Shown here: piece by piece, positions 8,855 through 51,860 of the stretch
Layout of the letters: every line of letters begins with the position of its first letter
Numbering within the stretch: position 1 is the stretch's first letter
Assembly: GCA_031292555.1 (NCBI GenBank)
Contig: JARLGV010000061.1
Span: 1-51,860, forward strand
From: Fimbriimonas sp.
Lineage (GTDB): Bacteria; Armatimonadota; Fimbriimonadia; Fimbriimonadales; Fimbriimonadaceae
DNA: 51,860 nucleotides
Reading direction: 5' to 3'
Position numbers and translations under genes: made by a program
The notes under the pieces: generated by a model
What the model saw: only the letters and a program-made list of their open reading frames with translations
What the model was told of the DNA's origin: nothing
Databases searched by the model: none

Positions 8855-8862
8855 GTCTAAGA

Positions 8863-9306: not shown

Positions 9307-9357
9307 AACCCCGACATGATCGCCTGAAAGGCGCTCCCTCGTCAATGACCCGCTCGA

Positions 9358-10224
9358 TCAGGGCAGGCTGGGCAGCTTTTCCAACTCGCGTACGATCCGG
9401 CCCGGTAGCTTCCGCTCCTTTACCGTGAGGATTCCCTTGCCTGGCTCGGCCTTGATCAGTTGCGAGTGAGGCCGCAGCGCCTTCGCAAAAACCGGTTCCA
9501 GGGCCGAATCGTCCCCCTCCGCGAGGTAGAACGAGTCGTTCAGAACGCCCCACTTGCCGTCTCCGCCGCCGTTCGTAACGTTCTCCATGTCGCGCGGACT
9601 GGTTCCTAGCCACATTCGATAGAGCGCCAGCTTCGGCTTTGACCGCTCCTCGCCCATCCAGTTTTCGAGGAAGCCGTTAAGCCCGCCGCCGAACGTGGTG
9701 ACCGAGACATGGCCGTCGTTCGGGTTGGAGATAGTCGCCTCATGTACCCAACGCCGGAGGATGTCGTCGTAGAAATACAGCTTCGTGAGGGTGTTCGCCT
9801 GGGTTGCGTCCTGCACCTTGGTCACGTAGTAGCGGTAAGTTTTGCCAAGCTTCCAATCGTAATCCAGGTGAGTGTGGGCGCCGGTGCCTTCGCCCCCGAA
9901 CCGGCTCCCCTGGGTGCGGCTCTCCTGCTCGACGATCGACGGATGCAGGGTCGGCGACGTGTCCCAGATCGAGAAGATCACGTTGTGACGGCCGCCTCCC
10001 TGGTCCTGGATGCCGGTATAGCCCCCTGCCGGGGCGCCGGGCCACCACGTGCAGCCGCAGTAGTAGATGAACTTGTTGGTCGACAGCACTTCGATCTCGC
10101 CGTACAGGCAGGTGAACTTCTTGTCGGTCGACGTCGGCTTCCACCAGAGGTGCTGGCCATAGGCGCATGTCGAGGCCACGCTTAAGGCGGCAAGGGTCGT
10201 TCCGATGGTCAGACAAGTTCTCAT
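9358..10224 (-). CDS. Secreted DUF3472 protein
   Basis: A 288-residue exported protein with a signal peptide (MRTCLTIGTTLAALSVASTCAYG). The core contains GGYTGIQDQ...GRHNVIFSIWD and W.GEGTGAHTHLDYDW-like segments, the hallmark of DUF3472, a beta-rich domain found in secreted proteins of polysaccharide degraders. It continues with a second beta-rich half (WVHEATISNPNDG, FGGGLNGFLENW). No catalytic residues are established for the family; a role in carbohydrate binding or hydrolysis is an inference from context. It lies between the CE2-like esterase and the DUF1801 gene, all leftward. Confidence 0.75.
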   Translation of the reverse strand: MRTCLTIGTTLAALSVASTCAYGQHLWWKPTSTDKKFTCLYGEIEVLSTNKFIYYCGCTWWPGAPAGGYTGIQDQGGGRHNVIFSIWDTSPTLHPSIVEQESRTQGSRFGGEGTGAHTHLDYDWKLGKTYRYYVTKVQDATQANTLTKLYFYDDILRRWVHEATISNPNDGHVSVTTFGGGLNGFLENWMGEERSKPKLALYRMWLGTSPRDMENVTNGGGDGKWGVLNDSFYLAEGDDSALEPVFAKALRPHSQLIKAEPGKGILTVKERKLPGRIVRELEKLPSLP

Positions 10225-10296
10225 TCGTTCAGTTCCAGGCAGGATCGCTGCTTCGAATCCTATTCGGCGCGGCTAACACCGGGCGAAAATCGTCGG

Positions 10297-11466: not shown

Positions 11467-11594
11467 ACCGGCTTCGAGTTTAGCCGCGCCAGGGGCCCGT
11501 TGGTCCGCCGATTAGGAGATTGTAGAAGCGTTGGCGATAGATACAGGTTCACTAGCCCGCGCGCGGGAGAAAGAGGTATATTTCAACACTGTCT

Positions 11595-11679
11595 GGGGAG
11601 TTGCCCGAGTGGCCAATGGGAACAGACTGTAAATCTGTCGGCGATGCCTTCGTAGGTTCGAATCCTACACTCCCCACCA
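11595..11679 (+). tRNA. tRNA-Tyr (anticodon GUA)
   Basis: The cloverleaf has acceptor GGGGAGT/ACTCCCC, an encoded ACCA end, an anticodon loop CTGTAAA (anticodon GUA) and the long variable arm typical of bacterial tRNA-Tyr. It lies 63 bp upstream of tRNA-Thr on the same strand, probably in one transcript. Confidence 0.96.
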
Positions 11680-11742
11680 TAGTGCCGAGTGATTCCGCGT
11701 GCCGTACAAGCGGGAAAGTTACCCGGTAGCATATACGCATAA

Positions 11743-11817
11743 GCCCCCGTAGCTCAGCGGCAGAGCACTTCTTTGGTAAAGAAGAGGTCAGAGGTTCGAT
11801 TCCACTCGGGGGCTCCA
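11743..11817 (+). tRNA. tRNA-Thr (anticodon GGU)
   Basis: Acceptor GCCCCCG/CGGGGGC, anticodon stem CTTCT/AGAAG with loop TTGGTAA (anticodon GGU), T loop TTCGATT and encoded CCA. The Tyr-Thr order is as in many bacterial tRNA-tuf clusters, but no tuf gene follows here. Confidence 0.96.
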
Positions 11818-11845
11818 GTTTCTCACAGTCCGAGCCATCGCTCCA

Positions 11846-12976
11846 CTATTTGCGAGTAACGTCGGCCTTCATCAGGACCACGGCATAGGGGTTCCACGTT
11901 GACATCGTGAAGTAGATTCGGACCCCGCGGTGGATAGCCCTAAAGTAGGATGGGATCATATAAGGACCGTATTCGCCACCCCAATCCCGTTCGCGCCCTG
12001 GATCGCTCATGCCGTCCTTCCCGCTTCCGATATGCATGAACTTGCCGTAGCCATCCTTGTGAGGATCGAAGAGGATCAATGGATCGCTCCAGGGGCCGAT
12101 GGGCGATGGGGACGTTCGAAGAACGATCCCACGCGGATGTCCGCTGTTGTAAGTCATCAACCACTGATGGAGTTGGGGCGACCAAGCAACCGACACCTCC
12201 CCGATCTCCTCGTGAACGAACAGAGGCTGGGCATCGGACTCGCTTCGGCTCCAGCCACTTCCACTCCAATACCGAATCGCCGAAGGGCGTTCCACATCGA
12301 AGAGTGGCAGACAGGCAAGCCTGGGGCTGCTTCGGCGGTATTCACGTCCGCTGGCGAAGAACAAAACCGCCTTGCCGCCCGTCTTCGGTAGGCCCGGAAC
12401 GTCCGACATGTTCACTACGACTGGCGACACGTTGATAAAGTGGTTGCGTGAAAGCTCGAATACTTGCTCCCATCGTTTTCCATCATCTGAGCGAGCGAGA
12501 ACGCTGCGGCCCATGATTTCTCCCCGGGGCCCTCGTGAATGGTCTGTCGTGTACACGGCATACATGTGCCCGTTGGCACTGAATCCGCCCGTCGGGACCT
12601 CGAATCCACCGAGCGATACACCTGGAATATGAACGGCCTCGTACTTTCCGTCTTCGGCCTTTATGAACTCGAGAGGCAGGCCGTCTTCCGGATTCCGATC
12701 CTCACAAAACGCGATCGCATCGCCATCGACAGGACGGTCCTGCGTGTTCGGGCCAACTGGCCAGGTATCTCCGAATAGGAATACGAGACGCCCCTTGTAT
12801 TCGAAGGAAGCTCCAAGGTCGGTTCCGCGAATGCCGGCCCGGGTCTCGGTCTGATTCTCGGCGGGACGTCCACGTTGCCGATCGGTTTCGCCGATGACCT
12901 GCGAGATCTTCTCGACATTGGCGACGTGAAGATCCGAAACTGAACCTCCCAGCAGGAAAAGGAAAATCGACAACAT
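11846..12976 (-). CDS. DUF4185 beta-propeller protein, exported
   Basis: A 376-residue protein with a short N-terminal hydrophobic segment (LSIFLFLLGGSVSDL). The body reads as a five-bladed propeller of the DUF4185 type: GTDLGASFEYKGRLVFLFGDTW, then VPTGGFSANGHMYAVYTTDHS, SVLARSDDGKRWE and EVSVAWSPQLHQWLMTYN, ending with MSTWNPYAVVLMKADV. The fold resembles GH43/GH32-type propellers, but no catalytic triad is established. Start at ATG 12976; the open frame extends further upstream only as a shadow of the next gene. It is the last gene of a leftward cluster with the AraR-like repressor, prepilin and small membrane protein, so it may bind or cut the same glycan. Confidence 0.78.
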   Translation of the reverse strand: MLSIFLFLLGGSVSDLHVANVEKISQVIGETDRQRGRPAENQTETRAGIRGTDLGASFEYKGRLVFLFGDTWPVGPNTQDRPVDGDAIAFCEDRNPEDGLPLEFIKAEDGKYEAVHIPGVSLGGFEVPTGGFSANGHMYAVYTTDHSRGPRGEIMGRSVLARSDDGKRWEQVFELSRNHFINVSPVVVNMSDVPGLPKTGGKAVLFFASGREYRRSSPRLACLPLFDVERPSAIRYWSGSGWSRSESDAQPLFVHEEIGEVSVAWSPQLHQWLMTYNSGHPRGIVLRTSPSPIGPWSDPLILFDPHKDGYGKFMHIGSGKDGMSDPGRERDWGGEYGPYMIPSYFRAIHRGVRIYFTMSTWNPYAVVLMKADVTRK

Positions 12977-13013
12977 GGGTTTTGGCCGGTCCACTCGGGC
13001 CGGCCGATGAGCA

Positions 13014-13214
13014 CTATTGAGTCGTGGAAGGCTTCTTTTGGAGCGCCGGATTCTGCCCCGCCGACATGAAGGCCTTTTTGACGGCGGGCGGCATCGACTC
13101 GACGCCTTGGGTTTGCGGCCCAGACGTCCCAATTCGAATCAGGAAGAACCCGATGACGATTGCCACAACTGCAACGATCGCCACTACGACCCCAGTAGGC
13201 AAGGAGTTTTTCAT
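13014..13214 (-). CDS. Small single-pass membrane protein, prepilin partner (module 1)
   Basis: A 66-residue protein with one strong N-terminal membrane helix (about residues 7-26, VVVAIVAVVAIVIGFFLI) followed by a polar tail of about 40 residues rich in Pro, Gln, Ala and Lys. No family recognised. It begins 15 bp after the prepilin gene. A run of nine G residues on its coding strand lies 4 nt before the ATG, where a ribosome-binding site is expected. Equivalent small genes follow each of the other three prepilin genes in this window, which supports it being real and a functional partner. Confidence 0.7.
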   Translation of the reverse strand: MKNSLPTGVVVAIVAVVAIVIGFFLIRIGTSGPQTQGVESMPPAVKKAFMSAGQNPALQKKPSTTQ

Positions 13215-13229
13215 TGTGCCCCCCCCCGA

Positions 13230-14075
13230 CTAGCCTCTACAAGCCGCAATCGGATCTTGCGCCTTATCGTCTTGAATCGTGTAGTCGCTTGGACAGGAGC
13301 TATACATTCGCTTGGATTTGGCATGGCCATCGCAATACGCGATGTTGTTCTGCCCGTTAAATGCTCCAGCCTTAAGTGGGTCGGTGATGTCCCAGCCGTA
13401 ATAGCCGATCGACATGTAGCCGCATGGGAGTTGTCCGTTCACTTCGAGGTCGTGATCTCCTACGTTCCAAAGGTCCGGGAACTTGGCGTTTATGAACAAA
13501 TAGGTTTGAGCAGGGACGGCAACTGAAGTTGCGCTCACATTCAGGCCATCGGGACGAATGGGCCCATAGTGGCCCCACCCGCCGGAATTATCCGTCCACT
13601 TATCGAATCCCGAGTTGCAGTTTGCCCATGCGCCGCGGTCCTCCGTGTTGATTGCCCCGTACGAGATATCGATTGAGTAAGAGTTGGCGCCGGTCTTCTT
13701 TGCAAGGCCGGCATCGTACAGTTTGGTCCACGCCCAGAACGGCCAATCTGTACTGGTCCAAGTGAAGCCATACGCCGGTGACTTGAAGATCTGCGCGTTC
13801 TTGATATACGGCATGATCATCAGATAGTAGAGTTCATCCTGGTAGCTGCCGTCTGGCTGCAGAGCGCCATAGTGGGCCGGCGAGTGGTAGGTGTCATCGT
13901 AGTCGTTCAGATAGAGGGCCTCCGCAGTTCCCATCTGCTTCAAGTTGGAAAGGTCGCTCGTCTTCTTTGCAGCCAACTTGGCTTGAGCAAAGACGGGGAA
14001 CAGAATGGCGGCAAGGATCGCGATGATCGCGATGACGACAAGAAGTTCAATTAGGGTGAAACCGCTTCGTTTCAT
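13230..14075 (-). CDS. Prepilin-type protein with DUF1559/PulG-like architecture (module 1)
   Basis: A 281-residue type II pseudopilin-like protein. The short basic leader MKRSG is followed by FTLIELLVV, the prepilin peptidase site (G at -1, F at +1, Glu at +5), and a hydrophobic helix ending FPVFAQAK. The beta-rich C-terminal domain ends with the prepilin-associated H-X9-DG motif, but the His is replaced by Phe (F...YCDGH, spacing kept). ATG 14075 is the start; the frame continues upstream only as a shadow of the repressor gene. It sits directly downstream of the AraR-like repressor and upstream of the small membrane protein. Likely displayed at the cell surface or periplasm; exact role unknown. 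Confidence 0.88.
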
Positions 14076-14101
14076 AGTATGTTCAACCGAGGCAAGGGTT
14101 C

Positions 14102-15232
14102 TTAGGTCGTGGCGCCACGAGGCGCGTAAAGAGATGAGTCTAGGACCGCCCGAGATGTCTCTGCGGGCTGAAATCGGGCGGAAACCCGGATAGGTCCCTT
14201 TGGGATAGGTGCGCCAACGATCAAGGATCGAAGGCGGTTGACTGCAGTGAGGCTCACGAGGTCCAATTGCTGAATGACACGATCCAACCGCCATGGCTGG
14301 CGGAAGAAGCTAGGACCAAAATCGTTATAGGTCGCGATTCCGAAATCGACTCCGACCTCCAGGCCAGCAACTCCACATGCCTCGACTAGGGCAACTGCCA
14401 GCCAGTCCTGGCTGCAGAACGCTGCCGTCGGCGGTTCCGCCATCGTCCGCATCGCGATGAGCGCGTCCGTTACGGCCTGGACCATTGTTTCATCGTTGCC
14501 ATCCAAGTGCACGGGAATCCACCGTTCGTAAGGTTTGGTATCGTATCCCAGCCATTCCACTGCCGCTCGATACCCATAGAACCGCTCTCGAATGCTAAGA
14601 GCGAACAGATTGTTGGTACCAAAGAAGGCAATGCGCTGGTGCCCGCGCTCGATCAGGTCGGCAATCGCTGTTTGGGTCGCCTGCACGTTGTCTGTAAGAA
14701 CGGTGATATCCTCGCAGCCTCGCGGCGCTCTATCAATGAGAACCAGAGGAAAGCCCGAGTCGGCAACCGCGCGAAACGCCCCGGCGTTTCCGTCGCCATC
14801 GCAGGGGTAGCAGATTATCCCGTCCACTTCGTTACGCAGTTTGTTTAGGTTATCGGCCTCCCGTTCGAGATCGTTCCGACCGGTGGCAACCACCAAGCGA
14901 GTTCCATCGTCCAACGCATGCTCGATGTGAGTCATGATCTCCGACTGAAGCCGGTTTGACGTGAAATCGGCCATGTAGGCGATCCGACCCACCGTCGTGA
15001 TTTGCGCCTTCTCCGCGACAACGGTTCCCCAACGTCGCTGGCGCACCAGCAGACCTTGGCGCTGCAATTCGCTCAAAGCTCGGTGAGCCGTGTTCCGTGA
15101 AACCCCCATGCGTGCGGCAAGCTCCTCCTCCGATTCGATACGAGATCCGGGGCTTAGCTCTCCGCTGTCGATCCGACCGCTCACTTCTGCGGCGATGGTT
15201 TGCCAGGTCGTCTTCTGCACGTCGCTTTGCAC
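14102..15232 (-). CDS. AraR-like GntR/LacI chimeric transcriptional repressor
   Basis: A 376-residue regulator with a GntR winged helix (residues about 10-75: [33 protein letters not shown]) joined to a LacI/GalR-type periplasmic-binding sensor domain (about 80-365: [52 protein letters not shown]). This is the architecture of Bacillus AraR, the arabinose repressor. GTG start at 15232. It heads a leftward cluster (prepilin, small membrane protein, DUF4185) and is divergent from a sugar ABC importer. A palindrome resembling the AraR box lies between them. The effector is probably a pentose or a short oligosaccharide, by inference. Confidence 0.88.
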
Positions 15233-15283
15233 TATACGACATTCAAGTGGGGATAGAAAGGGGTTAATTTCGTTTTGATCTTC

Positions 15284-15297
15284 TTTGTATGCACAAA
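15284..15297. promoter_or_regulatory. AraR-like operator palindrome
   Basis: TTTGT-ATGC-ACAAA is an inverted repeat with 5-bp arms that resembles the half-site pattern of the Bacillus AraR box (ATTTGT...ACAAAT). It lies between the divergent repressor and ABC importer genes and overlaps the -35 element of the importer promoter, the placement expected for repression. Assignment to the adjacent regulator is inferred. Confidence 0.6.
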
Positions 15298-15318
15298 ATG
15301 GCCATCAGTCTCTATAAT
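15290..15318 (+). promoter_or_regulatory. Sigma-70-type promoter of the ABC importer operon
   Basis: A perfect TATAAT (15313-15318) is preceded by TGCACA (15290-15295) at 17-bp spacing. The -35 is poor and is covered by the AraR-like palindrome. The binding-protein gene starts 68 bp downstream of the -10. Confidence 0.55.
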
Positions 15319-15386
15319 AGGGAACATAAGGCCATGCTCATGGGAGAACGCGCCAGCGTCTGGGATCGACAAATGGGGGTTGGGAG

Positions 15387-16733
15387 GTGACGATTCGCCT
15401 TCTTTGCCTGGCCGTAGTCGCGCTCCTCTTGGGCAGAATCGCACTGGTTGCCTCGTCCCCACGGGAGCGAGTGAGTAAGGGATCCGTCACCATCGAAATG
15501 TGCGTTTGGGGGATGCCATTTGAAAACGACCTCTACACCAAGGTTTACATTCCCGAATTCGAACGAGAGAATCCGAGCATAAAGGTCCGGTTTCACCACT
15601 TTGAGGATTACGGCAGCCGCGTCCTCTTAAGTCATGCAGGCGGGATCGCGCCTGACGTTGTTCGCGAGTTCAGCCAAACCGGCATGAACTGGACGCGGCG
15701 AGGGATGAATCTGCCCCTTGATAGGTACATCGACGGCCCAGACGGCATCGACCGTAAGGACTTCGTCCCACTGCTCTGGAACGATCTGCGCTTCAAAGGA
15801 GAGACATTTGCGATCCCCCAGGATATTAACATCCTGGGGCTGTTCTACAACAAAGACCTCTTCGATAAAGCCGCTTTACCTTATCCCAATGAGCACTGGA
15901 CGTGGGCCGATCTCAAGAACGCGGTGGACAAGCTGACCATCTTTCAGCCCGGTACAAGCGCACCGACCCAGAAGGGACTGGACATGGCATGGGGCGGCGA
16001 TTTCTTCCGTCCCTTTATGTACCAAAACGGGGGCCGGATGTGGGATGGGGACAAAGCGGTGTTCGATTCACCCGAAACCGCTGAAGCGCTGGGATTCTAC
16101 CGATCTCTCATGAAGACCTACAGCCTAACTCGGTCCGATGAAGGCCGTGGTGGGCTGGGAGCCGATAAGTTCTTTGGTGCGGGCCGGGTCGCGATGTATC
16201 TCGACGGAAGTTGGATGGTCCCGTCCGTCACGAAGAATTCTCCCAACATTCGATTTGGAGTTGCTCCCTTGCCGCGGGGCAAACTTGCCCTCTCCGTAAG
16301 CGGCAACTGCTCATGGGCCATCGACAGGGAGTCGAAACATCCGGACGAAGCATGGAAGCTGGTGAAGTTCCTCAGCAGCGACTGGGCCCTCAAGAAGTAC
16401 TGGCAGGCCCTTTGGGTAGCGCCGCCGGCACGGTGGTCGGCACTGCGAAGCAAGGAGTTCCACGAGATCACCGGCATTCAAGGCGGAGCCCCTGGGCTGC
16501 GAAATCCAGCCGAATGGCAGGACCGATGCGCTTGGATCGGAAAAGTGCTGGAGAATGGCTGGACCACTCTGGAGTATGCAAACCCCTATACAGATCGGAT
16601 GATGGTGCACTACAACGAGGCCGTGGATAAGGTCCTCATTCAAAACGAAGACCCGCTTCGAGCGCTTCGCCAAGCGGCTGCCGATGCCAATGCCGAAATC
16701 AAGCGATCCAAGGACAGCGAGGTACTGAACTGA
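15387..16733 (+). CDS. ABC transporter sugar-binding protein (family 1)
   Basis: A 448-residue extracellular solute-binding protein. The N-terminus is a hydrophobic signal/anchor (LLCLAVVALLLGRIALVA) without a lipobox Cys. The body shows family-1 features: VWGMPFENDLYTKVYIPEFERENPSIKV, the hinge segment AIPQDINILGLFYNKDLFDKA, and SGNCSWAIDRESKHPDEAWKLVKFLSS. Such proteins deliver oligosaccharides to MalF/MalG-type permeases. GTG start with a purine-rich GGGAG just upstream. First gene of a three-gene operon with two permeases; no ATPase gene is present, so a shared ATPase elsewhere is expected. Confidence 0.9.
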   Translation: MTIRLLCLAVVALLLGRIALVASSPRERVSKGSVTIEMCVWGMPFENDLYTKVYIPEFERENPSIKVRFHHFEDYGSRVLLSHAGGIAPDVVREFSQTGMNWTRRGMNLPLDRYIDGPDGIDRKDFVPLLWNDLRFKGETFAIPQDINILGLFYNKDLFDKAALPYPNEHWTWADLKNAVDKLTIFQPGTSAPTQKGLDMAWGGDFFRPFMYQNGGRMWDGDKAVFDSPETAEALGFYRSLMKTYSLTRSDEGRGGLGADKFFGAGRVAMYLDGSWMVPSVTKNSPNIRFGVAPLPRGKLALSVSGNCSWAIDRESKHPDEAWKLVKFLSSDWALKKYWQALWVAPPARWSALRSKEFHEITGIQGGAPGLRNPAEWQDRCAWIGKVLENGWTTLEYANPYTDRMMVHYNEAVDKVLIQNEDPLRALRQAAADANAEIKRSKDSEVLN

Positions 16734-17602
16734 AGAAACGAACATCTGCCGGGTGGGAGTTCGTTTCGCCTGCATTGCTGCTTGTCGGCATTTTCGTGGC
16801 CATACCAGCCGTTTGGGGGATCGGTCTTAGCTTCTTCCAATTCGATGCGATCGCCCCACCGAAGTTCTTGGGAACGAGCAACTACCAGCGTCTCCTGCAA
16901 GACCCAATGGTCGCGTTGACCCTTAAGAACACGGCCATATATGTGGCGTTGACGCTTCCCCTCGGTCTGGGATTGGCGCTGGCAATCGCCCTTGCGATCC
17001 ATGCGAAGTGGTTTCTTGGCAGCGGCACGGCTAGGGCTCTGTACTTCCTGCCCAACGTCACAAGCCTGGCAGCGGTGGCGTTTGTTTGGCAATGGCTGCT
17101 CAACCCCGACTATGGACTCGCAAACGCAGCGCTAAAGGCTGCGCATTTGCCGATTCTTGGTTGGCTCAGCGACCCGAAACTCGCGATGCCCTCAATTGCC
17201 GGCATCAGCATCTGGCAAGGGCTGGGGTTCACGGTATTGATCTATCTGTCAGGCTTGCGAAGTATCTCCGAGGAGGTCTACGAGGCCGCCCGCATCGACG
17301 GAGCCTCCGCGTGGCCGACCTTCCGCCACATCACCTGGCCACTGCTCACTCCGACTACGATGTTTCTGACGATCATGGGCGTCATCGGCGGGTTTCAAGT
17401 GTTTCAGAGCGTCTTTATCATGACCGGCGGTGGTCCCCTCGACGCCACGCGCGTGTTCCTCTTCTATCTCTGGCAGACCGCATTTCAGGGCCTCGAGTTG
17501 GGTTATGCGTCCGCTTTGGCGGTTATCCTCTTCATTATCGTCATGGCGCTGACATTGGCACAGTGGGTCTTTTACGGACGGAGGCTGCAGCAGTGGTCCT
17601 AA
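16730..17602 (+). CDS. Sugar ABC transporter permease (MalF/UgpA type)
   Basis: A 290-residue integral membrane protein with six predicted helices and the EAA loop that contacts the ATPase (EEVYEAARIDGASAWPTFRHITWPLL). The most likely start is CTG at 16730: it overlaps the binding-protein stop as CTGA, has GAGG 7 nt upstream, and restores the typical KKRTSAGWEFVSPALLL N-terminus. Conventional starts (TTG 16775) would remove the beginning of the first helix. It pairs with the next permease. Transport direction is import, by association with a binding protein. Confidence 0.88.
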   Translation: MKKRTSAGWEFVSPALLLVGIFVAIPAVWGIGLSFFQFDAIAPPKFLGTSNYQRLLQDPMVALTLKNTAIYVALTLPLGLGLALAIALAIHAKWFLGSGTARALYFLPNVTSLAAVAFVWQWLLNPDYGLANAALKAAHLPILGWLSDPKLAMPSIAGISIWQGLGFTVLIYLSGLRSISEEVYEAARIDGASAWPTFRHITWPLLTPTTMFLTIMGVIGGFQVFQSVFIMTGGGPLDATRVFLFYLWQTAFQGLELGYASALAVILFIIVMALTLAQWVFYGRRLQQWS

Positions 17603-18417
17603 GAAGGACAATCCGGCTCGCGGTATGGGCGTTAGTCATGCTGGGTGGTCTGGCCATGCTTGTTCCCTTCCTATGGATGGTGCTGACTTCGCTGAGAACC
17701 GACCAGGAAGCATTCGCGATTCCTCCGAAGTTGCTTACGAGCCCCCAGTGGCATAACTGGGCCGACGCATGGCATGTTGCGCCATTCGGCCGTTTCTTCT
17801 TCAATAGCGCGTTTGTCAGCACGTGTGTAACGATGGGCAGCTTGCTCTTCAACTCGATGGCTGCCTACGGGTTCGCAAAGCACCGATTCAAGGGGCGCGA
17901 CGCTGTTTTCGCCGGTCTCCTTGTGACCCTGATGATTCCGTTTCAGGTCACAATGATCCCAAGCTTCCTGCTTCTGAAGTCGCTTGCCTGGCTCGACAGC
18001 TATCCGGGCCTCATCGTGCCTGGTCTGGCGACCGCATTTGGGGTTTTCTTTCTGCGCCAGGCGATGATTGGGATCCCTGACGACTATCTCGATGCCGCTC
18101 GTCTGGACGGGGCCGGGGAGTTCGCTATCTATTGGTCAGTGGCGTTGCCGTTGGTGAAACCCTCAGTTGCGACCTTGGCCGTTTTCACATTCTTGGGTTC
18201 ATGGAATGACTTCTTAGGGCCGCTGATTGTGGTGAAAAGCGACGAGATGCGAACCCTCCCGTTGGCAATCTCGGCGCTCTCAGCCGGGCACTATGTGGCC
18301 AGCTGGCCACTGTTGATGGCGGGAGCCTCCTTCGTCATCATCCCGGTACTCATCGTTTATCTCCTCGCTCAAAGATATTTCGTCGAGGGAATCGCTCTGG
18401 GGGGCCTCAAGGGATAG
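17593..18417 (+). CDS. Sugar ABC transporter permease (MalG type)
   Basis: A 274-residue six-helix permease. The EAA loop is DYLDAARLDGAGEFAIYWSVALPL, followed by the MalG-type ending FLGSWNDFLGPLIV and a C-terminal RYFVEGIALGGLKG. The GTG at 17593 is chosen: GGAGG lies 8 nt upstream and the start overlaps the previous permease by 10 bp; the open frame extends far upstream only as a shadow. It forms the heterodimeric membrane channel with the preceding permease and closes the operon. Confidence 0.9.
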   Translation: MVLRRTIRLAVWALVMLGGLAMLVPFLWMVLTSLRTDQEAFAIPPKLLTSPQWHNWADAWHVAPFGRFFFNSAFVSTCVTMGSLLFNSMAAYGFAKHRFKGRDAVFAGLLVTLMIPFQVTMIPSFLLLKSLAWLDSYPGLIVPGLATAFGVFFLRQAMIGIPDDYLDAARLDGAGEFAIYWSVALPLVKPSVATLAVFTFLGSWNDFLGPLIVVKSDEMRTLPLAISALSAGHYVASWPLLMAGASFVIIPVLIVYLLAQRYFVEGIALGGLKG

Positions 18418-18746
18418 CGACAGCATGCCCTACGAGCAGTTGTTAGCACGTCTGTAGTTGAAATGGAGCATCTTGGCATTTCTGATCTGCTCAACTGGCT
18501 CAGGCCCGGTCACGCGAACATTCAGCAAAACAACGATGTCCAGCGACCGTAGCATTTGACCTATTTGGCATTCGCGAATAGTGAATAGCAAAACTGCCAT
18601 TCTGACCGTCATCTCCGCGGTAGCGAACTTCGGAGACAGGCATCGATGACCCAGGATATGTCGGCCAACGTACAACGCATTTCCCCTGACGGAGCTGGGC
18701 CCATGCCATTGGTCCAATTCGGCACTACGCCAGTAGACTATGAAAC
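18418..18746. other. Intergenic region after the ABC operon
   Basis: These 329 bases contain frames on both strands but none has recognisable composition or a ribosome-binding site. No strong hairpin or promoter was seen. It ends at the start of the cupin gene. Confidence 0.4.
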
Positions 18747-19196
18747 ATGCACCTTGCTATGCGCTCCCTCGGCATCTTGGCTTCCGCCTTCTGCTTTGCC
18801 GCCTGCTCGGCGGGCCAAGACGGGGCAAAGCACTCCGCTCCTGCTACGGTCAAAGTCGAGCAAATCCTCAAGAGCAAGAAATCCTGGAACGGGCAGAGCC
18901 TTCCCGCCTACGGTGAAAAGAAGGCCGAAGTCACGCTGCTGAAGATCACTATACCGGCTGGACAACGTCTCAAGCCCCACCTTCATCCGGTCATCAACGC
19001 CGCCTACCTCCTCGAAGGGCGCCTAAAGGTCGTCACCGAGAAGCACGACACGAGGATCTTCAAGGCCGGCGATGGCCTCGTCGAAGTCGTGAATACCGTT
19101 CATTTCGGCGAGAGCCTCGGCCCCGGACCGGCGGTCCTCATCGTGTTCTACGCCGGCCATCCCGACGTGCCGATCACGATCGTCAAAGGGAAATAG
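18747..19196 (+). CDS. Exported cupin-domain protein
   Basis: A 149-residue protein with an N-terminal signal whose FAAC (Cys about residue 20) could serve as a lipobox. The cupin barrel follows: PAGQRLKPHLHPVINAAYLLEGRLKVV corresponds to cupin motif 1 (G...HxH...E...G) and FKAGDGLVEVVNTVHFGES to motif 2 (G...P/V..H). Metal-binding His residues are present. Similar small periplasmic cupins occur widely without a defined reaction. An internal ATG (18759) is an alternative start. It converges with the next gene, 18 bp away. Confidence 0.78.
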   Translation: MHLAMRSLGILASAFCFAACSAGQDGAKHSAPATVKVEQILKSKKSWNGQSLPAYGEKKAEVTLLKITIPAGQRLKPHLHPVINAAYLLEGRLKVVTEKHDTRIFKAGDGLVEVVNTVHFGESLGPGPAVLIVFYAGHPDVPITIVKGK

Positions 19197-19214
19197 CAGG
19201 AATCACCGGACGGC

Positions 19215-19586
19215 TCAGAGCTTGAGTTTATAGAGCCTGGGCGACCATTTCCCACAGTTCATGCCGGCTGAGGCGCAAACGATTGCCGAACGGCGATTCT
19301 CGGACATGGTCATCGTGTACCCGGTTCGCGTCCCGGTGCAGGGATTGATCGGCAGACTCCCGCCAAGGTCCTTCGCGTAATCGGTCATCACGTTATTGTA
19401 AGTCCCTGCCTTGACGCCATGAACCTGCACGGTATTCGCAAGAGCTCTTGCGTTGGCGTCCGCTTGCACTCGCATCGCTTTGAAGTTCGGCGCAGCATGG
19501 CCGCCTTTGCCTTGGCCGGCGGCCGCCACGCAGAGACAGCAACATAGGGCTAAGGACGCAGCTTGTCCAATCAGTTTCTTTCGCAT
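19215..19586 (-). CDS. Secreted hypothetical protein with pilin-like tail
   Basis: A 123-residue protein with a Sec signal peptide containing a CCCLC cluster, cleaved near AAAGQG. The mature part has a helical segment (FKAMRVQADANARALANTVQ) and a C-terminal half (NNVMTDYAKDLGGSLPINPCTGTRTGYTM) that recalls the globular end of type IV pilins, with NPCTG and three further Cys that could pair. The prepilin helix itself is absent. Function unknown; resemblance to pilins is weak and visual only. No operon partner. Confidence 0.55.
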   Translation of the reverse strand: MRKKLIGQAASLALCCCLCVAAAGQGKGGHAAPNFKAMRVQADANARALANTVQVHGVKAGTYNNVMTDYAKDLGGSLPINPCTGTRTGYTMTMSENRRSAIVCASAGMNCGKWSPRLYKLKL

Positions 19587-19761
19587 TTTTCCTCCGGCAC
19601 TTTTCTTGAGAATGGTCTTCCGTTACCGTCCCATTATCCTCGATAAATCCCCAAATCAGTAGGACAAGTTGTGCGTGCGATCGTTTGGCGGTTGGGCCCG
19701 ACCGTGCCACCATTCAGTGCAGGAGTGCCAGGGCATCCGTGTCCGGCACTCATGCATAACG

Positions 19762-21990
19762 CTATTCCAAATCGGGATGATAGAACGGCGAGGATTTGAC
19801 CACGGACAGCCAGTCGACACGGTCGTCCAGAAGCCAGGTGCAGAGGGCTTCCAGGGCTTGTTTGCGCTTGCCTTCGGGCCAGATCGGAAGGTAATGCGGC
19901 ACCTGCTTCAACGCGCCGTTCGCCAGGTTCATGGCAATTTGGTCGCCTACCTCGATCGTAACCTCCTGCCCCACTCGGCATTTTGCGGATTCATCCGCGG
20001 GGATGGTCCAGTTGCCCATGCCGCCCGAGTCGTTGCGATACTGAAGATATTTGCCTGACCCGCCCAGTTGTACGACCTTGGCCGTCCCCGAGCGAGTCGC
20101 GTTCTTGAGTCCGCGCACCAGCATCTCTCGGAACGGGCGAAAGGCCATCAAAGGCGACGACGTGAATTCCACTGTGATGGCCCCACCAGCCTTGAGTGCC
20201 TCGTTGACGTCGGAGGATGCCATCGTGTCGCCCCATCGCTTCATATACTCTTCGCCTTTGGCAAGCACGCGCCGGTCCAACGGCATCGTCCAAAGAGGCA
20301 CGAAGAGACGGTCGCCCGGAAACCAAGGCTCAGGTTCGACGAATAGCAGAATCTGCCCGAAGTCGTCGGCCGTCGTGGTATCGCCCAAGAGAATTCGGTC
20401 GGCGATCGCCACGCCGAACGATCCAGCAATGGTTGAGCGAATGTCGGAATCCTTGACATAGAAGGCGGCGGTGTCGAGCGCCTGCTTACAAGCGACTTGC
20501 AGGCTGGGAAGCGCGTCGCGGGGGCTCCACTTCACCAGGCAATGTCCCATCTGCATCGCGCTTGCCGCTTCGAAGAGGTCCATCGTGCTGTTCGTCCTCG
20601 CGTGCGACATCTCATCGATGCGTTTGATCATGAGTTGAACGATTTCCGATCCGTGAGAAGCGCGCAAGGACTCGCCGCTCACCGGCCTGTTCGGGTTCCG
20701 GATGCCCAAACCTGAAGAGAGGCTTCTGACATCGTCGGCAGGCCCCGTCAGATGTTGGGCGGCGTTGAGCCAGTTCCGGTAGTCCGACTTGTCGTCGGCA
20801 AGCCCCTGTAGCCAACGCTCCGGTTCGGACAGGCCTTTGAACTTGTTCCACAGATCCCGAAGCTTGGGAACGTCGGCCCCGGTTCCAGAGTAGTAGGCTT
20901 GGACCGAAGAGGGCCAGATCCTGATGAGAATGGTTTGGGCAGCCATCTTGACTGTACACGGGCTGGCAGAGCCGATCGAGCCGCGGGAGGCGATGGACCG
21001 GCAGTACCGCTCATCGTTTTCGAGGACGTCCATGATCGCGGGTACTGCGTCTCCGCCTTCCGCAATCAGCGCCAGGCAGATCGGATCCTGACCAAACTCC
21101 GGTCCGCCAGGAACCATCACCTGCCTGGCGTCGACGGTATCCAGCGCGTCGATGAGCGCCGCGATTCGGGCCGGCTTGTCCAATCGATGAATCGCCGCCA
21201 GGTCCACCGGCTCCCTCTTCGGCCGCTCTACCCGCCGCAGCAAGTCGCTATGTAAAGCAATCGCTCTCTTGATATGCACGTCTCGGGAGTCCACAATGAA
21301 CCGCTGAGTTTTCTGCGGTTGCTTCTGCTGGACACTCAAAGACCGCACGAGTGCTGCCGACGCCCCTTCACCCTCTTCATCTCTACGATTCGCCAAGGCA
21401 TCAACCGCGACGAGTTCGCACCCTTGGGTGATCGTGTCACGAAGTTGCTCAAAGGTCAACTGGCCTGACCTCTCCTGGGTCATCCTCTTGTATACGCGTC
21501 CGGCCAGATCCGCCCGGCCCAAAACAAGCAGTACCCCTGGAGTCGCCGGTCCAATTTGTGATCCGGGTCCAAACCAGCTCCGCTTCGAAGTAGGTGCCAT
21601 CAACAAGGATATGGTTCTGTCCAGATCAGCCGGATAGGAATGACCCCGCATCACGACGTCGATTCCATCGAGGCAAGTCAGCCGGCGCCCGTCGGAGGAG
21701 ATCCAACCGTACGAGCCAGTTGTGAGTGCCGGAAATGACCCGGGGTCGCCCGGCATATCGACCCGTGCAAAACGTCCGCCCCTTGGATCTCCCAACCCGT
21801 TACCAAGCAGGATCTGTGCGGCAGAAACGTATTCAGGGTCGATGTCGGTCTTGGGCGGCGACCAATCCACGTGGATGACCTGAGGAACGACCGCGGAATC
21901 GCGCCGAGCCAACCTCACGCTGTGCCGGGCACTCACCGCTATACATCCGATGGCGGTCAGACAAACAAAGAGCAGAAAAACCGACTTCAA
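19762..21990 (-). CDS. Large exported hypothetical protein (about 742 aa)
   Basis: I do not recognise this family. Started at TTG 21990, with GGAGG 5 nt upstream, it begins LKSVFLLFVCLTAIGC, a signal sequence with a weak lipobox (Cys about residue 16). Residues of about 40-130 look beta-rich (VIHVDWSPPKTDIDP, GDPRGGRFARVD). The middle (about 240-550) is helical and could be HEAT-like, with DAVPAIMDVLENDE and MAAQTILIRIWP. The C-terminal part has WTIPADESAKCRVGQEVTIEVGDQIA, beta again. An ATG-started form at 22002 is also possible. It is monocistronic, with no neighbour pointing to a function. Confidence 0.7.
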   Translation of the reverse strand: MKSVFLLFVCLTAIGCIAVSARHSVRLARRDSAVVPQVIHVDWSPPKTDIDPEYVSAAQILLGNGLGDPRGGRFARVDMPGDPGSFPALTTGSYGWISSDGRRLTCLDGIDVVMRGHSYPADLDRTISLLMAPTSKRSWFGPGSQIGPATPGVLLVLGRADLAGRVYKRMTQERSGQLTFEQLRDTITQGCELVAVDALANRRDEEGEGASAALVRSLSVQQKQPQKTQRFIVDSRDVHIKRAIALHSDLLRRVERPKREPVDLAAIHRLDKPARIAALIDALDTVDARQVMVPGGPEFGQDPICLALIAEGGDAVPAIMDVLENDERYCRSIASRGSIGSASPCTVKMAAQTILIRIWPSSVQAYYSGTGADVPKLRDLWNKFKGLSEPERWLQGLADDKSDYRNWLNAAQHLTGPADDVRSLSSGLGIRNPNRPVSGESLRASHGSEIVQLMIKRIDEMSHARTNSTMDLFEAASAMQMGHCLVKWSPRDALPSLQVACKQALDTAAFYVKDSDIRSTIAGSFGVAIADRILLGDTTTADDFGQILLFVEPEPWFPGDRLFVPLWTMPLDRRVLAKGEEYMKRWGDTMASSDVNEALKAGGAITVEFTSSPLMAFRPFREMLVRGLKNATRSGTAKVVQLGGSGKYLQYRNDSGGMGNWTIPADESAKCRVGQEVTIEVGDQIAMNLANGALKQVPHYLPIWPEGKRKQALEALCTWLLDDRVDWLSVVKSSPFYHPDLE

Positions 21991-47738: not shown

Positions 47739-48458
47739 TCAGAAAAGAAAGGACTCATATGCGATGGGTGTCACCGCTTCAAGTTCAGCCGCGTCGAAGT
47801 CCAATAGACGAACCCAGTCAGAAGACAAGAGGTTCTGACCACGAAGCCCTCGGAGATAGCCGATGAGCAAAGCGAAAGCTAAGATATGGAAGTCGGCCGG
47901 TGCCTTGGCCCTGACAATCGGCTTTTCTCCCTTAATGTGCCCCGACTGCCGCCAAGTCGATGCAATGTTCTGCGATGTTGACTGAAGGGTGGTCTCTGCA
48001 TATTTCGAAGCGAAGCCTGAAAGAAGGCTCTTGTACAGCTGTTCCTTGGTGAGGGTGCTTCCTATCGGTGTATCCGTGACCGTGTCCACAGATGCCCTGA
48101 GGACCGTGTCGCGACTTAGTGCAAGCAGAATCGCGAGCACTGGCCTAGACGTAGTAGTATTTCTCCAGAGAAGCTCAAAAGCGTAAAACAATTGCTGCTT
48201 CGGGTTGAAGGAGTAAAGAATGATGAGCTTCGTGGCCGAGTTCTTGCGTCCGCTGCGCGTGGCTTTTCCGAGCACATTGTCTTCAAGGATCGCGTGGCGA
48301 ACATCGGTCGGGCTCACGACCAGATCAATACTTCCCATCACAGCTTCGAGTTCAGAGAGCATCATAGTGCGGCTCGTGTGAACGCCTCTTAGCCCTTCAT
48401 CGAAGCCATACTCCGCAAGGTCCAGCTTTTCCTCCTTACCCGAGGTGAAGTTTTGCAT
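47739..48458 (-). CDS. Possible BrxA/DUF1819-like protein
   Basis: A 239-residue all-helical protein. The arrangement SRTMMLSELEAVM, then AILEDNVLGKATRSGRKNSATKL, PVLAILLALSRDTVLRASV, STSQNIASTWRQSGHIKG and FALLIGYLRGLRGQNLLSSDWVRLLD resembles BrxA/DUF1819 proteins, which are DNA-binding components of BREX and related phage-defence loci. This is a resemblance from memory, not an alignment. It ends abruptly after AYESFLF, earlier than I would expect. It is divergent from the SNF2 cassette, with a short overlapping frame at its start. No PglZ, PglX or BrxC is present here. Confidence 0.5.
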   Translation of the reverse strand: MQNFTSGKEEKLDLAEYGFDEGLRGVHTSRTMMLSELEAVMGSIDLVVSPTDVRHAILEDNVLGKATRSGRKNSATKLIILYSFNPKQQLFYAFELLWRNTTTSRPVLAILLALSRDTVLRASVDTVTDTPIGSTLTKEQLYKSLLSGFASKYAETTLQSTSQNIASTWRQSGHIKGEKPIVRAKAPADFHILAFALLIGYLRGLRGQNLLSSDWVRLLDFDAAELEAVTPIAYESFLF

Positions 48459-48717
48459 TTCCTTTACGCTTATGAAGCTCCAGGTACTTAATGTGTCTCA
48501 TCACGTCCTCTTTGGGACACAAGAGGCATCGTCGAAACTCTGACCACCAAGTATTCGCCCGTTGCACGCGACTCTTGAGCCATTTGTATCGGAGAACTCT
48601 CTGACCATTTCCCACATTTCGCTCACCCCAACCGCTCTCTGTTACAAGGGGCTGCCTGCTCCGCGTATCAGCATCTTCAACGAACAATTTCCTGGTTGAA
48701 GATGATCTTGAATTCAC
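48436..48717 (-). CDS. Questionable small protein upstream of the BrxA-like gene
   Basis: A 93-residue frame starting at GTG 48717 and overlapping the start of the BrxA-like gene by 23 bp. It is basic, with a CLLC pair and two His further on. It would leave only 43 bp to the divergent 191-residue gene, which is short for two promoters. I cannot recognise it and composition is only moderately protein-like. The stretch 48459-48760 otherwise holds promoter DNA for the two divergent transcripts. Confidence 0.25.
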   Translation of the reverse strand: MNSRSSSTRKLFVEDADTRSRQPLVTESGWGERNVGNGQRVLRYKWLKSRVQRANTWWSEFRRCLLCPKEDVMRHIKYLELHKRKGNAKLHLG

Positions 48718-48760
48718 AACGACCTAGTACGCTAGTATCTCAGCCGGAACTAATTGCAGC

Positions 48761-49336
48761 ATGCCTCAACCTGATCGAACCTTGATTGGCTACCTGGCCG
48801 AATACGTATCCACCTCGGGAGGGCACTATGGCGGCCTATTGGTTGTCAACGAAAAAGGCCTTCCACGTGAATTTCGTCACACGGATGGGATCCGGCCAAC
48901 GCGGCTCCAACAGATTCTTTACGGTGACACGCTGGATTCATGCCTTGGGACCGATTCTATGGGACCCGCCCTCCTTGCGGCTTTGCAAAAGCGACCATCA
49001 ATTCTGCTGGTCGACGAAAAGAGCCGGCTGATCTTTGGTGAATTTGTGCTTGCTCATCGTCCCGCCGCCTTGATTGTTTGCGGCCCTAGTCTTGATCTGT
49101 TGACTTTCATGAATCAGATTGCGCCCTCTGGAGACCTGGTTGACGCTGTTCCTTTGACGCACAAGGGGGTCACAAACAGTCATATCGTCGCCTACGTCGA
49201 CGAAGGTGACGAGGGGGGCGGTCGTGCAGCACTTCTCCTTGCGCAGGGTCTTATGAATCTCCGGTCTCCGTTTGATCGGATTCGGTCAGTATTGGCACAA
49301 GTTGCAGAAATAGAGGAAGGCAAGGGCAAGAAGTGA
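48761..49336 (+). CDS. Uncharacterised protein, first gene of the SNF2 cassette
   Basis: A 191-residue soluble protein. The start GGHYGGLLVVNEKGLPREFRHTDGIRPTRLQQILYGDTL is a compact motif block (G-G-L-L-V-N...G-P-EF...T...P...LQ..LYG) that I associate with uncharacterised proteins next to SNF2-type helicases, from memory. The rest has alternating beta/alpha segments (RPSILLVDEKS, PAALIVCGPS, NSHIVAYVDEGDEGGGRAALLLA). No catalytic motif is evident. It overlaps the helicase start by 4 bp (GTGA), so the two are made together and probably act together. Confidence 0.7.
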   Translation: MPQPDRTLIGYLAEYVSTSGGHYGGLLVVNEKGLPREFRHTDGIRPTRLQQILYGDTLDSCLGTDSMGPALLAALQKRPSILLVDEKSRLIFGEFVLAHRPAALIVCGPSLDLLTFMNQIAPSGDLVDAVPLTHKGVTNSHIVAYVDEGDEGGGRAALLLAQGLMNLRSPFDRIRSVLAQVAEIEEGKGKK

Positions 49337-51060
49337 GTGTTCCAACGCTGCCGGGTGGAGGCATTCGGCGCGCCATCATAAACCGGCTTCGTCCGGTTCA
49401 GGTCAAGCCTGTACGAGTTCGTCCGATCGCTTGCGAGAAAATCCCACGCGTCGAGGCAAACTCGGTGTCTCTGGAAAATCGGCCAGAAGTCAGCTTCGAC
49501 GTTTGTATCTTTCCATACCCGCAGATTCGCGGAAAGATATTTCGGATCGCCGAAAGAATTCAAAGCCAACCGCCGGACGTTAGGAAACCTGCCTTGCCGG
49601 GCATTGAAGGCTCAGGCAGTGGCGACCGGAACAAAGTGGAACGTCGCCTTTCCATTGAGTTTCTTTACGATCTTCTCTACCCGGCGGTGGACGAAGACGT
49701 AACGCTCATCCCGGGATTTGCTGACCTTCATGCCTACCAGCGTGATGGCGTGAAGTTCCTTGTCGATAGAAACGAAGCGTTACTTGCTGATGACATGGGC
49801 TTGGGAAAGACGGCACAGTGCGCGATAGCGATTGCTATCCTTCGTAAGCAAGAGCGCCTTCGACGTGCACTAGTCATTTGTCCGCGCTCGGTGATTCAGC
49901 AATGGAAAGCCGAAGCCAAAAGATGGGGCGGACTCACAGCCACGATCGTTGAAGGAGCCGTTCACAAACGAACGTTGAAATGGAGACATGAGTCTGGCCT
50001 GCTTCTCACGACACCACATCTCGCATTGAAGGACGAAGAACTGCTTAAACAGGAGCACTTTGATCTAGTCGTTTGTGATGATATCGCGATGTTGAAAAAC
50101 CCGGGCCAGATAACCACCGCAATTCGAGAGATTCCGACCGATCGATCGTGGTGCTTAAACGGCACGCCGCTTGAGAACCGTCCCGAAGACCTCCTCAATA
50201 CAATGGAGTTTGTGTGTCCAGGATTGTTTACATACAGTGAACGGCTCCAGGCGCCCAGCAAGACTGTGATTGATGAGCGAATCAAGCCCTACTTTCTTCG
50301 TCGCCGAAAGGAAGACCACTTGGATTTGCCTGCAAAGGTTCCGATTGGACCGCTCGAAATTGAGCTGGAGGGAGAGCAGTTGCGGGCATATCGCGAGGCT
50401 GAACAGCGAGAATGGGCTGCTCTGCAAGAGTCTGGGATCAACACATCCCGAATGCACATTTTCGGGGTCATTGCTGCACTGATCCGACTTTGTAATTATC
50501 ATCCGCCGAGTGGAAAGTGCGCAAAACTGGATCGTTTGGCTGACGACTTGGAGACCGTTCTGTCGGACCCGACCAATAAAGCAGTTGTCTTCTCTCACGA
50601 TGTCAAAGCCCTCGAATTTCTCGTCAGGAAGCTCCATAGCTATGAGCCAGTACTTTATTTTGGCGGGCTAACCTCTACCCAACGCGCCACGGCATTATCC
50701 GATTTTGCTGGATCGAAGCGTCTCCTTCTCGGCTCGGTCAAGGCTTGCGGACGCGGGCTCAACTTACAGCACGCCAGTTACGTCTTTCATTTCGACCGAA
50801 CTTGGAATCCAGTTGACGAACTTCAGGCTGAGGACCGTTGCTGGCGGCAGGGCCAAACGAAAACCGTTTTTGTCACACGCTTTTTAGTCAAGGACACCAT
50901 TGAGGAGCGGATCGACAAGGTTCTGAAGCGAAAGTCGGGCATGTTCGATGAGTACATTAACGACATCGCTGTCGGGCCAGAAGAATCAGATGCTCTTGCC
51001 TCGCAAAAGTGGTCACTGGAGGACTTCATGGAGGTCTTAAAACCTCAAGGTGCAACGTAG
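49333..51060 (+). CDS. SNF2-family helicase-like ATPase with atypical motif II
   Basis: A 575-residue protein. The N-terminal 125 residues are unrecognised. The SNF2 core follows: motif I LADDMGLGKTAQ (Lys159), motif Ia VICPRSVIQQW, motif II VVCDDIAMLKNP (Asp249-Asp250, where DEAH/DEAQ is usual), motif III LNGTPLENRPEDL, motif V CGRGLNLQ and motif VI AEDRCWRQGQTK. Such ATPases translocate on double-stranded DNA to remodel protein-DNA complexes and occur in defence systems such as DISARM. GTG start overlapping the 191-residue gene. It lacks an N-terminal nuclease or methylase. Its partners are the flanking small genes. Confidence 0.88.
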   Translation: MSVPTLPGGGIRRAIINRLRPVQVKPVRVRPIACEKIPRVEANSVSLENRPEVSFDVCIFPYPQIRGKIFRIAERIQSQPPDVRKPALPGIEGSGSGDRNKVERRLSIEFLYDLLYPAVDEDVTLIPGFADLHAYQRDGVKFLVDRNEALLADDMGLGKTAQCAIAIAILRKQERLRRALVICPRSVIQQWKAEAKRWGGLTATIVEGAVHKRTLKWRHESGLLLTTPHLALKDEELLKQEHFDLVVCDDIAMLKNPGQITTAIREIPTDRSWCLNGTPLENRPEDLLNTMEFVCPGLFTYSERLQAPSKTVIDERIKPYFLRRRKEDHLDLPAKVPIGPLEIELEGEQLRAYREAEQREWAALQESGINTSRMHIFGVIAALIRLCNYHPPSGKCAKLDRLADDLETVLSDPTNKAVVFSHDVKALEFLVRKLHSYEPVLYFGGLTSTQRATALSDFAGSKRLLLGSVKACGRGLNLQHASYVFHFDRTWNPVDELQAEDRCWRQGQTKTVFVTRFLVKDTIEERIDKVLKRKSGMFDEYINDIAVGPEESDALASQKWSLEDFMEVLKPQGAT

Positions 51061-51061
51061 G

Positions 51062-51373
51062 ATGACGTTAGATCAGCAATTCGCAGACGATATGATTCGC
51101 CTCAGTGACACTGCCGCCAAACGCGGATACCATCCTCGCTATTTCCTTCAGATGATAGAAACGCGCGGCGCAGTAGCCGCGGCACGGATACTACTGAAGG
51201 GCGAGTCGGTCCAATCCGGTCTCTTCAGGCTCGCAGAACTTGGTTTGCTCCAACATAGCATGGAGAACATTATGCTGAACCCAAAGTACGTCGAGCTATT
51301 CACAACAACCGAGAAGCGAGTGGCAGGAGCAAGACTTGAGGCACTCGGTTTTACACCTGGTCTCTGGGAGTAG
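51062..51373 (+). CDS. Small conserved protein of the SNF2 cassette
   Basis: A 103-residue helical protein. RGYHPRYFLQMIETRGAVAAARILL, FRLAELGLLQHSMENIML and KYVELFTTTEKRVAGARLEALG form a pattern (GY.P..FL.M....G...A..LL...GL..L...LL..S.E......LF...E...A..RL) seen in small proteins and C-terminal domains next to restriction and mobile genes. Function not established. It begins 2 bp after the helicase stop (GTG at 51050 would overlap), so it belongs to the same operon. Confidence 0.72.
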   Translation: MTLDQQFADDMIRLSDTAAKRGYHPRYFLQMIETRGAVAAARILLKGESVQSGLFRLAELGLLQHSMENIMLNPKYVELFTTTEKRVAGARLEALGFTPGLWE

Positions 51374-51471
51374 AGTGTTGCCTTTTGGCCCCGTTGTTTC
51401 GCCATATGTAGGGATTGGGAAGGCTTATTCCTGCAGGTCTTAGGTCCTTGAAATGCAAAGCAAGCTGAACG

Positions 51472-51669
51472 ATGAAGAAAGCACACGACCTTAGCCGAGA
51501 GGAACTCTACGATCTCGTGTGGAGCGAGACGATGGCAACGCTTGCGCCGAAACTCGGGATTAGCGATGTAGGTCTTAAGAAGCGGTGTGCGAACCGTCCA
51601 AAACAAGCTCCATTGGGCGGTGAGTGGCATGACAGCAGCAGAGATCATCGCAGCTCGGGCAGACGCTGA
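51472..51669 (+). pseudogene. Truncated gene with SREELYDLVWSE domain
   Basis: The N-terminus LSREELYDLVWSETMATLAPKLGISDVGLKKRC closely follows a widespread HTH-like domain (SREELY.LVW..PM..LA...G.SDVGL.K.C), which normally continues into a P..GYW motif and a longer protein. Here the pattern breaks down after Arg-Cys, and the frame ends with a low-information stretch. It is probably a deletion or frameshift remnant. It sits beyond the SNF2 operon at the island's edge. Confidence 0.5.
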
Positions 51670-51797
51670 AAAGCCGTTATGGAATAACGAACGAGTTCAG
51701 CAAGCCGAGTTTCCGTTAGAGCCTCGGTGCGACGCTCAAAAATGAGGTCGATCAGATTTGATACAAGGCTGTCCTGTTGTCCAGTTCCTGCGTCCAT
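51645..51797 (-). CDS. Short hypothetical protein (50 aa)
   Basis: A short frame on the minus strand, ATG 51797 to TGA 51645. It encodes a strongly helical, protein-like peptide (DSLVSNLIDLIFERRTEALTETRLAELVRYSITAFQRLPELR, in segments). It overlaps the broken gene on the opposite strand. There is no clear ribosome-binding site. It could be a small gene or the relic of a longer one truncated together with its neighbour. From 51798 to the window end (63 bases) nothing further is seen. Confidence 0.3.
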   Translation of the reverse strand: MDAGTGQQDSLVSNLIDLIFERRTEALTETRLAELVRYSITAFQRLPELR

Positions 51798-51860
51798 TCC
51801 ATGTCTATTCTAGGACGCATTCACTGGAGGAACCTGTTCGATCTGTCCATTTTGAAAATA

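Follow-up and report, generated by a model that had tools for sequence, protein, structure and literature searches.

The 51,860-nt window analysed here is one complete contig (JARLGV010000061.1, assembly GCA_031292555.1) of a Fimbriimonas sp. genome that totals 6.46 Mb, and near its 3′ end it carries a gene for a 191-amino-acid (aa) protein coupled to a gene for a SNF2-family ATPase. Both are on the forward strand, the first at 48761..49336 and the second, encoding 575 aa, at 49333..51060, with a 4-nt overlap in which the TGA stop of the 191-aa gene (49334-49336) meets the GTG start of the SNF2 gene (49333). The 191-aa protein is predicted to be a catalytically dead member of a family with the RNase H-like fold of Endonuclease V (EndoV) and PIWI, and we propose it as a nucleic-acid reader or adaptor for the SNF2 motor. 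A divergent brxA gene lies upstream of the pair and two further open reading frames (ORFs) follow it. The whole segment from 47739 to the contig end at 51860 has a G+C content (GC) of 52.5% against 58.4% for the rest of the window, below every upstream 3.6-kb interval (minimum there 0.5475), and its GC at third codon positions (GC3) is 0.53-0.61 against 0.78-0.81 in sugar-transport and arabinofuranosidase genes. The low GC and low GC3 mark this segment as probably foreign, acquired horizontally.

The SNF2 protein matches the Pfam models SNF2-rel_dom (8.8e-35) and Helicase_C (5.6e-17) and keeps motifs I, II and VI intact (DDMGLGKT, VVCDDIAMLKN and QAEDRCWRQGQ). Its layout is that of a two-RecA-lobe double-stranded DNA (dsDNA) translocase core behind a variable N-terminal region of ~130 aa, and its best PADLOC scores are to ZorD and DpdE. 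In 6/6 members of the subclade to which the window belongs, motif II reads V[VI]CDD[IV]xMLKN, with Asp replacing the usual catalytic Glu; other clades have DE.

The 191-aa protein found no match in Pfam, NCBIfam, PHROGs, PADLOC or PDB sequences. Structure prediction, which the earlier note on this DNA had proposed as a check, produced a confident model with an EndoV/PIWI fold: AlphaFold2 run on an alignment of 29 relatives returned a predicted local distance difference test score (pLDDT) of 89.8 and a predicted template modelling score (pTM) of 0.87, and Foldseek matched the model to Endonuclease V with E 1.1e-6 and probability 1.00. VIA Z values were 10.8 for EndoV (160 residues) and 10.5 for the uncharacterised A. 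fulgidus protein 2qh9 (146 residues), at a root-mean-square deviation of ~3.8 Å, with the PIWI domain of AfAgo slightly lower at 9.6. A separate model of a relative from the five-gene operons (type B, below), built from 13 sequences of that type, had pLDDT 85.7, a Foldseek match to EndoV at E 2e-6, and Z values of 10.6 (2qh9), 10.5 (EndoV), 9.7 (PIWI) and 9.3 (C-terminal half of UvrC). The two modelling alignments are almost disjoint, the first 29 including one type-B relative. Chance best matches typically reach Z 7-8, which these values exceed, not by a wide margin; the weight of the assignment is therefore carried by the Foldseek E-values and by the uniform list of EndoV, PIWI and UvrC matches. 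From two clades independently, the family is thus predicted to have the Endonuclease V/PIWI-type RNase H-like fold. In the model this domain takes up the whole 191-aa chain and would leave no room for a MID domain with a 5′-end guide pocket. When the family and EndoV profiles were compared, no significant end-to-end match emerged, only a local one (E 0.0066, one-to-one), and the host genome has no match to PF04493 (Endonuclease V).

Catalysis by EndoV requires an Asp in strand 1. Among the 42 aligned members of the 191 family, only P35, E37, P170 and R173 are invariant, with G24, G33, F38 and L53 strongly conserved. The two columns that could hold the β1 Asp are non-acidic in types A and C (column 11 is Y/F, column 13 is A/T/L/G/V), which agrees with the earlier note's statement that the protein has no catalytic motif; an Asp appears at column 13 in three type-B members. 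Neither the EndoV set of Asp (β1), Glu and Asp (β4) nor its PYIPG motif was found in the family, and in 23-24 of 25 genuine EndoV sequences from the same phylum the D/E/D set is retained. As judged from the alignment, the canonical two-metal site is not conserved. Given the missing β1 Asp, we read the 191-aa protein as a disarmed nucleic-acid reader, and the family as pseudo-nucleases that would bind nucleic acid or protein.

To map the family we searched 291 Armatimonadota genomes with the 191-aa protein and then with alignments of its relatives, so that all family counts refer to this one phylum. Members occur in 42 genomes. Three operon types can be read from the gene surroundings, and clades of the family match operon type. 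Type A (12 loci) is the 191-SNF2 pair as in the window; in 11 other genomes the pair has no adjacent brxA. Type B (14 loci in 14 genomes of eight families) has a constant gene order: a 250-280-aa probable coiled-coil protein, an ATPase of ~370 aa, an ATPase of ~410 aa, the 191 relative and SNF2 (for example locus L093 in genome G051, 6454-11893; also L094-L105 and L055). Type C (18 loci) has a 191 relative without SNF2, followed, where the sequence is readable, by an uncharacterised partner of 270-310 aa; the partners from f8 and f26 are homologous (E 6.5e-7) and the partner family has no known domains, and nothing was found to support the idea that the partner derives from a detached SNF2 N-terminus. 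The junction between the 191 and SNF2 genes measured -44 to +24 nt in 25/25 type A and B loci, spanning 14 families (lengths computed with the nearest start codon chosen). A junction this tight at every locus excludes chance, and the 191-SNF2 pairing is a conserved unit.

In a maximum-likelihood tree of the 42 members, B, C, near-A and far-A separate, each consistent with a single origin; support is 100/100 for B, 97/91 for C, 93/86 for far-A and only 66/72 for near-A. With midpoint rooting, SNF2 is found to either side of the deepest split, which makes it plausible that SNF2 coupling is ancestral and was lost in clade C. Pairwise distances among 191 relatives track those among their SNF2 partners (r=0.91, Mantel p=2e-4; r=0.88 within the five-gene clade): the two genes are co-inherited.

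Two type A loci have surroundings worth recording. Genome G017, of the same genus as the source, carries a family relative, and scans of the contigs gave only that relative; at this locus (L004, 2906-18641) a large defence-like operon diverges from the pair and encodes a PLD-SNF2 helicase, a type IIG-like methylase, DUF3800-like, DUF262/HEC-05-like and sigma-70-like proteins, a Z1-type helicase and an NsnC-like protein. In genome G042 (L005, 14748-15587) a tRNA-Ala gene lies ~0.2 kb upstream of the start of the pair, and no attachment-site-like repeat of it was found; synteny with relatives is too poor there to show an empty site.

The two ATPases of the five-gene operon in G051 are remote BrxC/D proteins (Pfam PF10923, 4.4e-9 and 5.7e-17), and no relative of the five-gene-operon ATPase was found in the phages or plasmids searched. 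This is a likeness to BREX (bacteriophage exclusion), but the score is 43 bits against a cut-off of 350 for the BrxD equivalog, and the operon has no PglZ, methylase, BrxA, BrxB or BrxL. A 2026 survey of BREX covers SNF2 helicases and BREX-related systems, and its main text mentions neither RNase H, PIWI nor Armatimonadota; the five-gene operon is not described in it (PMC12839542). The operon probably constitutes a separate system that has yet to be described, and it makes the better experimental target. At one locus (L097 in G155, 6547-19900) it directly adjoins a type I-C CRISPR-Cas system with cas3, cas7, cas8c and cas4 (called by PADLOC) and cas5 and cas1 (by eye), and at another (L101 in G195, 3410-4745) what looks by eye like a toxin-antitoxin set (antitoxin, PIN and RelE-like) is inserted between the ATPase genes and the 191 relative.

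The neighbours of the pair in the window are of a different kind. The brxA gene (47739..48458, reverse strand, 239 aa), divergent from the 191-aa gene, matches PADLOC BrxA at 6.1e-61 across residues 10-228; the Pfam BrxA model gives only E=0.077, under the cut-off, and Pfam alone would miss the gene. Among its relatives on plasmids (33-35% identity), some belong to brxA-brxB-brxC-methylase operons. The host genome has no match anywhere to PglZ (PF08665) or to BrxC/D (PF10923; BrxC/PglY or BrxD ATPase), so brxA here is an orphan. BrxA occurs in 7 other genomes of 201 Armatimonadota sampled, and in 0/7 does it adjoin the pair. Being an orphan here and never beside the pair elsewhere, brxA and the pair are neighbours in an island and separate systems. 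The earlier note's possible BrxA-like gene is therefore a real BrxA that stands outside the conserved unit, and its judgement that the cassette is neither BREX nor DISARM (defence island system associated with restriction-modification) holds, PglZ and BrxC/D being absent from the genome and a Drm set from the cassette.

That note had also described a coupled operon of three genes. All three ORFs are present, the third encoding 103 aa at 51062..51373 on the forward strand, its ATG at 51062 and only 1 nt 3′ of the SNF2 stop. Homologues of the 103-aa protein lie at unrelated loci (G038, G029, and Rhizobium and Streptomyces plasmids), and none was found beside the 191-SNF2 pair in other genomes; this places the 103-aa gene outside the conserved unit, as a neighbour and not a recurrent partner. 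Farther on, a 65-aa truncated ORF (51472..51669, forward) is, as had been noted, a broken remnant gene near the contig end: it breaks off with no continuation in any reading frame, and it matches no family in Pfam, NCBIfam, PHROGs or PADLOC. The last 119 bp (51742..51860) match the end of contig C129 exactly, suggesting an assembly-graph join by which C129, reversed, continues the window. Past the overlap C129 carries a small ORF, a PIN-domain gene (PIN-type toxin) and a degenerate 3′ fragment of tRNA-Thr, followed by high-GC chromosome. An attachment-site origin found no support: the degenerate fragment is inverted relative to the tRNA-Thr of the window, and hence there is no clean repeat pair. 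Promoter and terminator scans stayed at chance level, and an Rfam scan gave no match.

Several described systems resemble parts of the pair. Endonuclease V (PF04493, 2qh9) has the same fold over nearly the entire 191-aa chain, but identity is ~10%, the signature residues are absent, and in clades A and B the 191 family has SNF2 as its linked partner. The short or inactive Argonaute PIWI modules (AfAgo, SPARTA, SPARDA) and pPIWI-RE share the fold class, the catalytic loss and the habit of sitting in operons with other enzymes; unlike them, the 191-aa protein has no MID domain, its partner is SNF2 and not DinG, and the operon has no nuclease gene. The closest concept is pPIWI-RE with its coupled DinG helicase and nuclease (PMC3702460). 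On the motor side, ZorD (Zorya), DrmD (DISARM), DpdE (Dpd) and BrxHII (BREX type 3) have the same SNF2 core, but the window protein is about half their length, has no Mrr-like nuclease or other fused domain, and lacks the partner genes. Its residues 130-542 match only the helicase core of ZorD (profile 442-885), with no ZorA, ZorB or ZorC among the cassette genes; the likeness to DrmD is generic to SNF2, with no other Drm protein in the cassette. Full-text searches of open-access papers (most subscription papers and bioRxiv lie outside this scope) turned up no description of the pair or the operon. The earlier note's suggestion that this may be a small, previously undescribed system built on SNF2 has survived the analysis.

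We propose that the 191-aa and SNF2 proteins would form one two-subunit machine. The 191-aa subunit, an EndoV/PIWI-fold domain whose cutting site has been lost, would recognise or grip some feature of nucleic acid, or a nucleoprotein target, and dock the motor; the SNF2 subunit would be an ATP-driven dsDNA translocase working where the reader is bound. Its target would most likely be incoming or aberrant DNA (phage, plasmid or other mobile DNA). Since the unit has no nuclease or methylase, it would obstruct rather than cut, pumping along the DNA and displacing replication or transcription complexes. In the five-gene form the two BrxC/D-like ATPases and the coiled-coil protein may contribute an additional layer driven by ATP, as in BREX. 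We give this non-cutting reader and SNF2 motor, directed against foreign or aberrant DNA, an even chance of being correct. Defence or some other action against mobile DNA may likewise be credited with a probability of about one half. Tentatively, and a little short of even, we would go further and see an undescribed anti-foreign-DNA class, in which a disarmed EndoV/PIWI protein that reads a guide or a structure loads SNF2, with two-gene and five-gene forms at 26 Armatimonadota loci.

The pointers to defence are the patchy spread of the family (42/291 genomes across many families), the GC of the module, which is under that of its flanks in 10/10 loci compared, the BrxC/D-like ATPases of type B, and the neighbouring genes. 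The earlier note had set defence islands against a conserved housekeeping operon, and the pair and its relatives are found in both settings: defence genes adjoin it in the window (brxA), G017 (PLD-SNF2 and type IIG-like methylase), G051 (methylase) and G155, and housekeeping genes in G042 (dapF/aroA) and in G116 and G139 (ftsH/tilS/folK). The latter weigh against a defence function, as do several other results. In PADLOC scans of the flanks a minority of loci had defence genes, and the IetA matches there are probably AAA proteins of the FtsH type. The viral contigs and plasmids searched yielded no member of the family. Clade C is fixed near galT in one genus (g47, L042-L050), where it looks vertical and non-defensive (clade C also takes in L043, L044, L049 and L107, and L053 beside flhB-flhA-flhF-fliA-type genes). 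In favour of defence, the five-gene operon is over-represented among BrxA genomes (3/7; hypergeometric about 0.002-0.007 with assumed sample sizes), but these are small numbers that could follow genome size. The co-inheritance of the 191 and SNF2 genes is a shared history, by which contact between their products is not proven.

The housekeeping surroundings would suit a module for repair or transcription maintenance, in which the reader finds damaged DNA, R-loops or stalled polymerase and SNF2 clears it, with no role in defence. RapA and Rad54 also work through SNF2 cores of this kind, the fold groups with two repair enzymes (Endonuclease V and the C-terminal half of UvrC), some pairs have housekeeping surroundings, and clade C looks vertically inherited. 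A maintenance function fits poorly with a distribution as patchy as 12 pairs and 14 five-gene operons in 291 genomes, with the low GC of the modules, with BrxC/D-like ATPases in the larger form and with the defence genes that adjoin several copies, and we hold it to be doubtful, though the strongest of the alternatives.

If the 191-aa protein were instead an active nuclease with a rebuilt site, the pair would be a nuclease-translocase effector with a logic like that of Hachiman HamAB. There too a small protein accompanies a superfamily 2 (SF2) motor, and HamA is a nuclease effector (PMC12278908); in contrast, the 191-aa protein has an EndoV/PIWI-type fold and no conserved catalytic site. Two acidic residues could belong to such a site. 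D65 and D85 are both present in 6/6 members of the window's subclade, and D85 aligns with the β4 Asp of EndoV in the weak local profile match; the invariant Glu37 and Arg173 are otherwise unexplained. But D85 is lost from most other clades, at position 65 nearly all A and C members, but not the five-gene clade, have an acidic residue, neither β1 candidate is acidic in types A and C, and the invariant P35, E37, P170 and R173 make no known metal site. An active nuclease is for these reasons improbable.

Least probable is that the cassette is the debris of a decayed BREX island with no present function, as the orphan brxA in a genome without PglZ or BrxC/D and the broken ORF and degenerate tRNA fragment nearby might suggest, for neither the 191 nor the SNF2 ORF is broken, all motifs are kept and the pair recurs without adjacent brxA in 11 other genomes, so that it is not a BREX fragment, and debris describes brxA itself and perhaps the 3′ end.

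The reader-motor pair belongs among SNF2-centred modules that act on DNA, and there is a fair chance that it represents a new class of system; what is new is the EndoV/PIWI fold predicted for the 191-aa protein and the five-gene version with BrxC/D-type ATPases. Being missing from the curated databases tested, the family goes unseen by pipelines for annotation and by defence finders. RNA interference, prokaryotic Argonautes and inosine repair all rest on the PIWI/Endonuclease V fold, and a further small, disarmed branch of it tied to a motor of the chromatin-remodeller type would link this fold to bacterial SNF2 translocases. With the five-gene operon, BREX-type ATPases would reach into a system that has no methylase, PglZ or nuclease, which is relevant to the open problem of how phage can be stopped by BREX-like machines that do not cut.

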